From the NCBI GenBank assembly GCA_007118195.1, contig SKSA01000275.1:1-11727 (forward strand): a stretch of DNA of 11,727 nucleotides. Direction: 5' to 3'. Numbering within the stretch: position 1 is the first letter of the stretch; each line of letters begins with the position of its first letter. The stretch comes from Anaerobacillus sp. (GTDB lineage: Bacteria > Bacillota > Bacilli > Bacillales > Anaerobacillaceae). This document shows, in pieces, positions 4,892-8,867 of the stretch. The position numbers and the translations under genes were made by a program. The notes beneath the pieces were generated by a model. It worked only from the letters and a program-made list of their open reading frames with translations. It was not told where the DNA came from and did no database searches.

Positions 4892-5600
4892 ACATAGCAA
4901 ATTTGACCTTTTAGCTTTTGGCGCCCATGCTGACGATGTTGAAATCGGCATGGGTGGTACAATGGCTAAATATAGTCATCAAGGTTATAACGTAGCAATA
5001 TGTGATTTGACAAAAGCAGAATTGTCATCTAATGGTACTGTAGAGCTACGGGAAAAAGAAGCAAATAAAGCGCAAGAGATCTTAGGTGTAAAGAAAAGGG
5101 TTCAACTTGATTTGCCAGATCGAGGTATTTTTATTACCCCCGATCATATTAATAAAGCGGTGTCTATCATTCGTGAATTTCGACCTCAAATTGTCTTTGC
5201 TCCTTACTATGAAGATCGTCATCCTGATCATGGCAATTGTGCTACATTAATTAAAGAAGCTATTTTTTCAGCACGGATCAAAAATTATGAAGATGAACTC
5301 AAGTTACCAGCTCATAAAGTGGATGCTTTTTATTATTACATGATCAACGGCTTTCATAAACCAAGTTTTATTGTCGATATTTCCAATGAAATTGAATTAA
5401 AAGTAAAAGCATTAAATGCTTATGAAAGTCAGTTTACAAAGCAACCGAAAAGTGTGGAAACTCCACTGACGAATGGTTATATTGAATCAGTCTTAGCGAG
5501 AGAAAGCCTATATGGAAAAGAAGTAGGAGTTGAATACGGAGAGGGCTTTATAAGTGATGCGCCATTATTATTTCAACAACTAGTAAGGGAGAAGAAATGA
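4884..5600 (+). CDS. bshB1: Bacillithiol biosynthesis deacetylase BshB1
   Basis: The 238-residue zinc deacetylase of the PIG-L/LmbE family removes the acetyl group from GlcNAc-malate to give GlcN-malate, the second step of bacillithiol synthesis. The zinc site is visible as AHADD (residues 14-18, with His15 and Asp18) and HPDH (113-116), with the usual Asp17 as general base. GMGGT follows the first motif. The ATG at 4884 overlaps mgsA by 8 nt; the ribosome binding site is weak (AAAGGTTG), which suggests translational coupling. The 3' end shares an ATGA with bshA. Length and motifs are normal, and the bshA neighbour confirms the pathway over other LmbE enzymes. Confidence 0.95.
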
Positions 5601-6736
5601 AGTTAAAAATAGGAATTACTTGTTACCCAACAATAGGTGGCTCAGGGATTATTGCTACTGAATTAGGAAAGCTTTTAGCCGAAAAAGGACATGAAGTTCA
5701 TTTCATTACTACCGGTTTACCATTTCGACTAGAGAAAGTATATTCAAATATATATTACCATGAGGTTGAAGTTAATCAATATTCCGTATTTCAATATCCG
5801 CCTTATGATTTGTCTTTAGCAAATAAAATGGCAGAAGTAACTCGCCGTGAAGATTTGGACATTCTTCACGTTCATTATGCAATCCCCCACGCGATATGTG
5901 CTTTCTTAGCAAAAGAAATGGTTGGTGGCGACTTGAAAATAGTCACAACACTTCACGGTACAGATATAACCGTTTTGGGCTATGATCAGTCATTAAGTGA
6001 AATGATCCGCTTCGGTATTGAAAAGTCTGATGCAGTTACAGCAGTTTCAAGTGATTTGATTAAAGAAACTGAAACGTTATTACATATAGAAAAGAATATA
6101 GTTCCCGTTTATAATTTTGTTGATCATCGTGTCTATCATAAAAAAGATGGCACTGTCTTAAGGCGAGATTATAAGATCGCTGAGGATGAAAAGGTAATTA
6201 TTCACGTATCTAACTTTCGTCAAGTCAAGAGAGTTCCTGATGTTGTTCGTAGTTTTGCCCAAATAGTGAAGCAAGTTAATGCAAAACTACTACTTCTTGG
6301 AGATGGACCTGAGTACTCCACGGTTTGTCGTCTAGTAAAAGAATTAGGATTACGAGATAAGGTATTGTTTTTAGGAAACCAAAAACATGTCGCTGACTTT
6401 TTATCCATCAGTGATTTGATGATGCTATTATCCGAAAAAGAAAGTTTTGGATTAGTGTTATTAGAAGCAATGGCTTGTGAAGTTCCTGTAATTGGAACAA
6501 ATGCGGGTGGTATTCCTGAAGTAGTCGTCGATGGTGTATCCGGTTTTATTTGTGATATTGGCGATGTAGATGCTATTTCAGCGAAAGCCATTGAAATTTT
6601 AACAAATGATGATCTACATAAAAAGATGGCAAACGAATCAGTAAAAAGAGCAAATACGTTTTTTAGCACGGATACGATTATTTCTCAATATGAAGATATT
6701 TATTATACGATTCTAAATAAGCGTAAAGTGATGTAA
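5597..6736 (+). CDS. bshA: Bacillithiol glycosyltransferase BshA
   Basis: The 379-residue retaining GT4 glycosyltransferase joins L-malate to GlcNAc from UDP-GlcNAc, the first step of bacillithiol synthesis. The N-terminal domain shows [11 protein letters not shown] (residues 14-24) and LHGTDIT (119-125). The C-terminal nucleotide-binding domain has NFRQVKR (206-212), LLGDGPE (233-239) and the E-x7-E motif (Glu282 and Glu290 in ESFGLVLLE), followed by [11 protein letters not shown]. The ATG shares four bases with the bshB1 stop and is preceded by AAGGGAG. The cysteine-adding BshC is not in this window. A 21-nt gap separates it from cca. Family and function are well supported by sequence and by bshB1 next door. 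Confidence 0.96.
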
Positions 6737-6757: not shown

Positions 6758-7915
6758 ATGAGCACTAATTTCTTTAAGACGGCGAATATGATTGTTGAAA
6801 AGATTGAAGACGCTGGTTTTGAAGCATACATTGTTGGTGGTGCCGTTCGTGATCACTTACTTAATAGAGGCGTTCACGACATCGATATTACTACGTCAGC
6901 TCCGTGTGAGAAAATTAAAGAGATTTTTTCGCATACGGCAGATGTAGCTTTAAAGCATGGAACTGTTATTGTCTGTTACAATGGTGAAGCGTTTGAAGTA
7001 ACAACTTATCGAGGTCAAACTTTAATTGAGGATCTAAAGCTAAGAGATTTCACAATCAATGCTATGGTGTTAACGAAAGCAGGAGACATTATCGACCCTT
7101 ATTTAGGGAGAGAAGATATTAAGCATAGACTTATTCGTGGCGTAGTAAATCCTCGTGAGCGTTTTAGAGAAGATCCACTACGTATGCTTAGGTCCTTTCG
7201 GTTTGTAAGTCAACTTGGCTTTTCAATTGATCAAACAACATTTGCAGCTATCCAAAGCGAAAGTAGCCAAATAACAAAGGTCGCAATCGAACGTATTGCT
7301 TCAGAATTCGAAAAGATATTTTTAGGGGCTAATGCAAAAAAAGCATTTCAGTTATTAAATAGTTCTAGTATCAGTTGCGAAATTCCTCAGTTGAAGGAAA
7401 TAAGCAAGTCTCTATCTGATGATAACGTGATATTTTCGATTTCTTCACTAAAAAACATAACCGAAGTATGGTCTCTTTTATTGTTTATATCTGAGGTTCA
7501 GGACTGTCAAACATTCTTACGCTGTTGGAAGCAACCTAAAAAAGTGATAAATGAAGTAGATTCGATGATTTCTCGTTTACCAATGCTTTTAAAGCGTGGG
7601 TTTAATGAGGAAGATCTATATTTTCTCGGTCTAGAAACAGTTGAGAAGGCGGAACGAGTTAGAGCTCTACTCAAAAATGAAGCACCTAATATTCATAAAG
7701 TTACGTCACAATATTATTCATTACCGATAAAAGATAAAAAACAACTGGCGATAAACGGAACAGATATTATTGATCTATTGAAAGATGAAAAACCGAAAGA
7801 GCGTATTGGTCAAGTCATTTCTTTAGTAGAAAAGGCAGTTTTAACACAAGTAGTGGAAAATAAAAAAAAGGCAATCATTCATTGGTTACGAGAGGAGGGT
7901 TATGTAAATGCGTAG
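6758..7915 (+). CDS. cca: tRNA nucleotidyltransferase, likely CC-adding type
   Basis: A 385-residue class II tRNA nucleotidyltransferase that adds nucleotides to tRNA 3' ends. Motif A is GGAVRD (27-32) with the metal-binding Asp41 and Asp43 (DID); motif B is RDFTINAM (96-103); the nucleotide-selecting EDxxR is Glu138, Asp139, Arg142 in EDPLRMLRSFRF. Between TTYR (82-85) and EDLKLRDF only five residues remain, where full CCA-adding Bacillus enzymes, as I recall them, have about 21. The missing stretch is the flexible loop needed to switch to A addition; its loss marks CC-adding enzymes. The deletion is in frame. A separate A-adding enzyme would then be expected elsewhere. The ATG follows AGGTTGGGA. 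The last 8 nt overlap birA. The family is certain; CC specificity is inferred. Confidence 0.93.
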   Translation: MSTNFFKTANMIVEKIEDAGFEAYIVGGAVRDHLLNRGVHDIDITTSAPCEKIKEIFSHTADVALKHGTVIVCYNGEAFEVTTYRGQTLIEDLKLRDFTINAMVLTKAGDIIDPYLGREDIKHRLIRGVVNPRERFREDPLRMLRSFRFVSQLGFSIDQTTFAAIQSESSQITKVAIERIASEFEKIFLGANAKKAFQLLNSSSISCEIPQLKEISKSLSDDNVIFSISSLKNITEVWSLLLFISEVQDCQTFLRCWKQPKKVINEVDSMISRLPMLLKRGFNEEDLYFLGLETVEKAERVRALLKNEAPNIHKVTSQYYSLPIKDKKQLAINGTDIIDLLKDEKPKERIGQVISLVEKAVLTQVVENKKKAIIHWLREEGYVNA

Positions 7916-8867
7916 TAAACTATTACAAATGCTTAATGATCATCAAGGAGAATTCGTTTCAGGAGAAGCAATTAGTAATTATTTAGGTTGTTCAAGAACT
8001 GCAGTGTGGAAGCATATAGAGGAGCTTCGTAAAGCAGGCTATAAACTAGAAGCAGCCCCTCGTAAAGGGTATCGGATTATTCATCAGCCTAATTTATTAA
8101 CGGAAAGTGAGATTAAGGCTGGACTCGCAACGAATTATTTAGGAAAACACGTTCATTATGAGAAGTCCGTTAAATCTACTCAAGAAATCGCGCACCGCAT
8201 CTCTAGGGATGGTGCAATAGAAGGAACCATTGTCGTCGCAGATGAGCAAGTAGCTGGAAAAGGAAGGTTAGGTCGACCTTGGTTTTCTCCAATTGGCACA
8301 GGGATTTGGATGAGTTTGATTTTAAGACCGAAAATTCCGCCGCAACAAGCCCCTCAATTAACACTATTAACCGCTGTGGCAGTTATACGAGGAATTAAAG
8401 CAGCTACAGATCTTCAGTGTGATATAAAATGGCCGAATGATATATTGTTAAATGGGAGAAAGTTAGTAGGAATCTTAACCGAGATGCAAGCGGATCCAGA
8501 TCAAATTCACTCCGTCATCATCGGTATTGGGATCAATGTAAATGAAACTGATTTTCCAGAAGAAATAAAAGAAATTGCCACATCACTAAAAATTGAAAAA
8601 GAAGAAGAGATCAACCGGGCGACAGTAATCAAAAGTATTTTAGAACAATTTGAGGAATTGTATGAGTTATTTTTGAATGAGGGTTTTATTCCAATAAAAA
8701 AGCTGTGGGAATCAAATGCGATAACGATTGGTCGAAATATAACGGCAAGAACAACAACTAACTCAATTCATGGTTTTGCCCAAGGAATTACTGAAGACGG
8801 TGTTTTGCTCTTAAAAGATGAAAAAGGAGAAATTCATAAAATTTATTCAGCAGATATTGAATTTTAA
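7908..8867 (+). CDS. birA: Biotin-protein ligase / biotin repressor
   Basis: The 319-residue bifunctional BirA activates biotin to biotinyl-AMP, attaches it to carboxylase biotin domains, and as a dimer represses biotin genes. The N-terminal winged helix covers about residues 1-60, with a recognition helix near 28-42 (CSRTAVWKHIEELRKAGY). The catalytic domain has the biotin- and ATP-binding GKGRLGRPWFSP (117-128) and KWPNDILLNGRKLVGIL (174-190). A small SH3-like C-terminal domain begins near 275. The presence of the DNA-binding domain places it with the class II, repressor-type ligases. GAGGAGGG (7892-7899) is a strong ribosome binding site, and the start overlaps cca by 8 nt. No terminator follows directly, so transcripts may run on into the pan leader. 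Confidence 0.96.
   Translation: MRSKLLQMLNDHQGEFVSGEAISNYLGCSRTAVWKHIEELRKAGYKLEAAPRKGYRIIHQPNLLTESEIKAGLATNYLGKHVHYEKSVKSTQEIAHRISRDGAIEGTIVVADEQVAGKGRLGRPWFSPIGTGIWMSLILRPKIPPQQAPQLTLLTAVAVIRGIKAATDLQCDIKWPNDILLNGRKLVGILTEMQADPDQIHSVIIGIGINVNETDFPEEIKEIATSLKIEKEEEINRATVIKSILEQFEELYELFLNEGFIPIKKLWESNAITIGRNITARTTTNSIHGFAQGITEDGVLLLKDEKGEIHKIYSADIEF

Follow-up and report, generated by a model that had tools for sequence, protein, structure and literature searches.

In the window, the 11,727-nucleotide stretch of Anaerobacillus sp. DNA analysed here, the gene that would ordinarily be called cca lacks the segment for its flexible loop. We are confident that it encodes a class II CC-adding tRNA nucleotidyltransferase, working with an 860-aa A-adding partner encoded elsewhere in the genome. 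A division of labour of this kind, with one enzyme for CC and another for A, is already known, and the Anaerobacillus gene is very probably a mislabelled instance of it. Published work on other species is what suggests that the window protein would add CC only and its partner A only. The cca-named gene of the whole genus, and of 61 of the 397 order genomes sampled, probably does two thirds of the named job, and models of tRNA maturation or tests of gene essentiality would miss the need for a second gene.

The window gene and its loop

The open frame at 6758..7915 (forward strand, as are all features of the window described here) encodes a 385-aa product with matches above cut-off to Pfam PolyA_pol, PolyA_pol_RNAbd and tRNA_NucTran2_2. 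It possesses the class II head and neck and the catalytic residues of motifs A-E. The closest solved relative is PDB 1miv, which we take to be the CCA-adding enzyme of Geobacillus stearothermophilus, aligned over residues 6-380 with E = 1.3e-71. Directly upstream lies a bshA-like gene (5597..6736) and directly downstream a birA-like gene (7908..8867), both gene names being presumed by us. The birA-like gene, the usual cca neighbour in the order, adjoins the enzyme in 30/30 single-enzyme loci and in 53/54 short-loop loci (a count that leaves out the window locus and includes L174, a split gene described below); thus, the window gene occupies the usual cca place. The bshA-like gene was matched in 29/30 single-enzyme loci and in 25/54 short-loop loci, 40 of these 54 being covered with only about 200 bases upstream.

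What sets the product apart is the stretch following motif A. Read from 7001-7054, residues 82-99 are TTYR-GQTLI-EDLKLRDFT, and the alignment with 1miv places a deletion of 16 residues between TTYR (82-85) and EDLKLRDFT, leaving G86-I90 (7013..7027) at the site. The flexible loop required for A addition is gone. Counted from E80 to R96 in the alignment, the stretch comprises 16 residues in the window enzyme. Single-enzyme relatives within the order (30/30) show 32, and the range among further CCA enzymes from named genomes is 31-32 (79/79). A preliminary description of the locus, which had marked 7004-7055 (from residue 83 as far as the opening base of codon 100), stated that only GQTLI separates TTYR from EDLK and that the frame and the other catalytic motifs are intact; both points hold, with the frame sound on either side of the gap and the set from D41 to E183 kept. 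The source genome is fragmented (2.70 Mb in 393 contigs, 62% complete), and one might therefore suspect that the gene of a normal CCA enzyme had been misassembled or misread. However, the length from GG..RD to RDFTxN is 75 in the window and in six other Anaerobacillus genomes alike, and the frame is unbroken on both sides. Chance or misassembly as the cause of the gap was rejected on the strength of the six congeners, and we regard the likelihood of such an error as negligible.

For the remaining motifs, 54 short-loop enzymes of the order were aligned with 109 CCA and 29 long partner enzymes; L174, the short-loop gene of genome G074 that lies in two frames, was excluded from the 54. The window enzyme keeps D41, D43, R96, D97, D113, E138, D139, R142, E178, R179 and E183, and the residues D41, D43, R96, D97, N101, D113, D139, R142, R145, R148, R179 and E183 are present in 54/54 short-loop enzymes. 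Judged by these residues, the catalytic core is otherwise sound. Motif A (D41-x-D43, 6878..6886), whose carboxylates are described as metal-binding (PMC7730189), is invariant in 54/54 short-loop and 109/109 CCA enzymes, and the motif E region (E178-R179...E183, 7289..7306) is kept in 54/54 short-loop enzymes and in 108-109 of the 109 CCA enzymes. In motif D (E138-D139-P-L-R142, 7169..7183), the residues of which are described as nucleotide-templating (PMC7014341), D139 and R142 are found in 54/54 short-loop enzymes and E138 in 43/54; the latter count fits the remark in PMC11784652 that the position of this first templating residue varies in CC-adding enzymes. The motif C region (7094..7108) reads DPYLG, as opposed to DPFGG in 1miv. 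Two positions in particular are shared by the CCA and long enzymes but relaxed in the short-loop ones, namely R85 and the first Arg of motif B. This Arg is replaced by Leu in the window enzyme (L95-R96-D97-F98-T99, 7040..7054, for RRDFT); neither the replacement nor the motif C reading had been remarked on in the preliminary description. R85, a basic residue that immediately precedes the missing loop (7010..7012), is Arg in 109/109 CCA and 29/29 long-type enzymes; among the 54 short-loop enzymes it is Arg in 32 and Lys in 16.

The loop has been described as a lever that turns the EDxxR template from CTP to ATP; in the cases tested, a CCA-adding enzyme becomes CC-adding once the loop is deleted, and its absence is given as the hallmark of bacterial CC-adding enzymes (PMC7014341; PMC3925840). 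By analogy, the window protein would bind tRNA and CTP through its normal catalytic core and add C74 and C75. It would stop after CC for want of the loop by which the nucleotide pocket is switched from CTP to ATP, the adjoining first Arg of motif B being lost as well, and the final A would be added by the 860-aa enzyme.

The preliminary description also considered that the name cca overstates the activity of this gene, a view with which our comparisons agree: the 385-aa product probably cannot carry the A-adding step for lack of the loop, yet it passes NF009814, the NCBIfam equivalog model for CCA tRNA nucleotidyltransferase, with 376 bits against a curated cut-off of 290. So do 6/6 further short-loop enzymes (307-398 bits). 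Since all seven short-loop enzymes tried pass, the model is blind to the difference between CC and CCA enzymes, and the misnaming is built into the annotation.

The partner enzyme and the tRNA genes

That a second nucleotidyltransferase gene should exist elsewhere had been predicted from the window, and the genome search found one. Two proteins of the window genome match PF01743 at E <= 10, namely the window gene product and an 860-aa DHH-CBS-nucleotidyltransferase (G000:C110:4717-7284, reverse strand), the sole other class II nucleotidyltransferase detected there. It combines DHH, DHHA1, two CBS, head and neck domains, which is the A-adding architecture, and carries the long loop and RRDFT. 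Those elements of the preliminary description that sequence can address have all turned out as predicted. The A-adding model NF041569 fits 857 of the 860 residues with 600.7 bits, below its cut-off of 1440. This cut-off is very narrow: it is passed by 0/299 genomes of the phylum sample, where 126 match at E <= 1e-40, so that A-adding-type enzymes would go unnamed. The A-only activity that we ascribe to the partner would follow from homology to the tested Bacillus halodurans A-adding enzyme, which we assume to be of the long type. A further enzyme could have been missed, the window genome being 62% complete; the four congeners at 99-100% completeness (G001-G004) have these two genes only, with one match split in two in G004.

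The closest solved relatives of the nucleotidyltransferase part of the partner are PDB 3h37 and 1vfg/4wbz, both with a long stretch and RRDFT; we take the first to be the Thermotoga maritima CCA-adding enzyme and the second the A. aeolicus A-adding enzyme AaL. According to PMC3925840, the T. maritima enzyme adds CCA and AaL adds A only. As its solved relatives differ in activity, sequence alone does not settle what the partner does, and the 860-aa enzyme might make the whole CCA, with the window gene redundant or in another role. Indeed, 20 other genomes of the phylum have no clear class II enzyme besides one of the DHH-CBS family or of the bare long type, which there presumably makes all of CCA, as has been published for the lone long-type enzyme of T. 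maritima (PMC3925840); the DHH-CBS type by itself is thus no proof of A-only activity. The 20 genomes were chosen for having a long-type enzyme and no clear partner; in two of them a weak additional match appears (E 0.008 and 0.39), and four more genomes, each with one long-type match (G685, G439, G407 and G580), were left out. Among the 20, one genome of another class, G440, has as its lone clear class II enzyme the long DHH-CBS-type L272 (G440:C32:95788-97771), which groups in the tree with the Anaerobacillus long enzymes (support 87/81) and is possibly a transferred gene making all of CCA there. Loci with a long-type or bare long-type enzyme as the only clear class II enzyme include L267-L276. 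Against such a role for the Anaerobacillus partner stand the retention of D41, D43, R96, D97, D139 and R142 in 54/54 short-loop enzymes, their place beside birA in 53/54, and the A-adding enzyme of B. halodurans named in PMC11784652. We therefore judge it very unlikely that the 860-aa enzyme acts alone, and favour its working with the window protein.

The tRNA genes indicate that CCA addition is needed. An encoded CCA is present in 20 of the 27 tRNA genes found in the window genome and absent from 7, among them each of the three detected for tRNA-Thr(tgt). The single-contig congener G002 encodes CCA in 71 of the 86 tRNA genes found and not in the other 15, and no copy with CCA was found there for Arg-cct, Arg-tct, Leu-caa, Leu-gag and Val-gac. 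These searches scored 150 of 181 candidates in the window genome and 150 of 306 in G002, so that a few genes may be missed. On these counts, for some tRNAs CCA must be made anew and not just repaired; as most tRNA genes (20/27) encode it, they cover part of the need themselves. The preliminary description had named as speaking against it a genome with neither a second nucleotidyltransferase nor encoded CCA ends. This does not apply, the second enzyme being present; encoded CCA ends exist as well, on 20 of the 27 genes.

Distribution of the enzyme pair and the first Arg of motif B

In a set of 61 genomes, made up of the window genome with 60 relatives, the pair occurs in 15 and a single full-loop enzyme in 46. 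The order sample of 397 genomes, again with the window genome included, divides into 61 with the pair, 334 with one match and two (G317 and G379) in which a further match accompanies a full-loop enzyme. Full length in the 334 was judged by match span among the matches listed and in the 17 weakest-scoring genomes that were checked, and by score in the rest. The 61 pair genomes belong to seven families, and every sampled member of these families has the pair. In the 62 pair genomes of both samples together, the short-loop gene was read in 55 (in one of them in two frames) and assigned by match span in seven, and the partner sequence was read in 29.

The partner has neither DHH nor CBS in 2/61 pair genomes, where it measures 431 (L209, G170:C95) and 409 residues (L210, G241:C16). 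A 339-residue open frame, transposase-like by eye, lies just upstream of the bare partner in G170. The partner frame is shorter than usual in a few genomes (G003, 564 residues; G384, 726; G196, 759). The short-loop gene L174 (G074:C12:167845-169453) is split over two frames of 215 and 223 residues and is either a broken gene or a sequencing error. In G317, a second nucleotidyltransferase (L225, G317:C2:322077-324454), divergent, 405 residues long and with both head and neck domains, sits on a different contig from a normal full-loop CCA enzyme; L225 and L226 were excluded from the partner counts.

No short-loop enzyme without a partner was found among the sampled genomes of the order. This bears on whether the short-loop enzyme still adds the whole CCA, only slowly, the second enzyme being a helper or repair enzyme. 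Such a reading could draw on reports that specificity is not wholly determined by the loop (PMC3925840) and that two full CCA enzymes can coexist in one organism, Dictyostelium (PMC7432833). It sits poorly, however, not only with the constant presence of a partner but also with the CC-adding enzymes obtained by loop deletion in tested cases (PMC7014341), and with the loss of the first Arg of motif B, which is present in 159/159 CCA or long-type enzymes. We find slow CCA addition by the window enzyme highly improbable. That the organism needs two enzymes for tRNA 3' maturation, as proposed from the window, is supported at the level of sequence by the loop loss, the partner gene, the co-occurrence of both genes and the tRNA genes without CCA.

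How often the loop was lost was approached with a tree of 76 rows, in which 36 of the 54 short-loop enzymes were used. The order's short-loop enzymes fall on one side of a branch with 56/46 support, found in 58% of the bootstrap trees; with support this weak, a single origin for them is a possibility. The eight partners from other classes in this tree (six with a short stretch; L227 and L228 without) group elsewhere with full-loop enzymes, in another starred clade (99/98). This separation makes at least two losses likely.

The distribution of the first Arg of motif B deserves separate discussion. At this position (L95 of the window enzyme, R110 of G. stearothermophilus), Arg is present in 109/109 CCA and 29/29 long-type enzymes and in 3/54 short-loop enzymes of the order. 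In one alignment, it is kept in all 159 enzymes expected to add A, which comprise 30 single enzymes of the order, 79 other CCA enzymes, 5 full-loop and 16 long-type enzymes of other classes, and the 29 long partners of the order. Among 93 predicted CC partners it is found in 18, these being the 3/54 in the order and 15/39 in other classes. The stretch is short in 91 of the 93, including the 18 that keep the Arg, and full or nearly full in L227 (G408:C19:1057-3013) and L228 (G436:C6:68179-70132). Counted from E80 to R96 in the alignment, the 39 other-class partners thus comprise 37 with 14-25 residues and these two, with 32 and 30, respectively. L227 and L228 come from two-enzyme genomes in other classes, and both combine an unusual sequence in the loop with absence of the first Arg; they are possible bacterial CC-adding enzymes that lack the deletion. 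It may be that CC addition is not the activity of some of the 39. L234 keeps the Arg and has as its best match among solved chains a poly(A) polymerase, presumably that of E. coli, and L232 has Lys in place of the second Arg. Among the solved chains in the alignments listed, those that add CCA or A, or make poly(A), have RRDFT or RRDLT.

We would suggest, tentatively and with somewhat less than even confidence, that the first Arg, acting with the loop, contributes to the C-to-A switch as its second element, and that its absence is a second mark of CC-adding enzymes, seen even in L227 and L228. Shared function would be hard to tell from a constraint relaxed once the loop had gone; L227 and L228, which keep the loop stretch and lack the Arg, speak a little for shared function. 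Over the 104 rows of a tree test of joint loss, the Arg is lost in 41/59 short-loop enzymes, 2/2 full-length partners and 0/43 other rows. This test yielded one independent pair on starred branches, so the tree is too weak to show repeated joint loss of loop and Arg. In the searched portion of the literature on CCA- and CC-adding enzymes, the first Arg of motif B was not found as a mark of CC versus CCA addition; it may be known, the original 2008 alignments lying outside the search. The C-to-A switch is described as not understood in detail (PMC7014341), and the loss of this Arg offers one residue to test for it. If the suggestion is true, the role of the Arg would help explain the weak or missing A addition after loop re-insertion into CC-adding enzymes.

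Comparison with known systems

Relative to the G. stearothermophilus CCA-adding enzyme (1miv), which has 16 extra loop residues, RRDFT and DPFGG, the window enzyme departs in each of these features. In the loop region it resembles a solved entry listed as Poly A polymerase, which we take to be the Aquifex CC-adding enzyme AaS: this, too, has a short loop and lacks the first Arg of motif B, with Glu in its place (EDLKERDFT). The Aquifex enzyme differs in coming from another phylum, in its 525-residue chain as opposed to 385 aa in the window, and in having extra helices (PMC3925840). A close parallel is the CC-adding/A-adding pair of B. halodurans (Bralley 2005 and Neuenfeldt 2008, as reported in PMC3925840, PMC7014341 and PMC11784652). 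The species is a different one and the two systems are likened by description, not by sequence; they share a Bacillus-like host in which a loop-less short enzyme is accompanied by another class II enzyme, of the A-adding kind.
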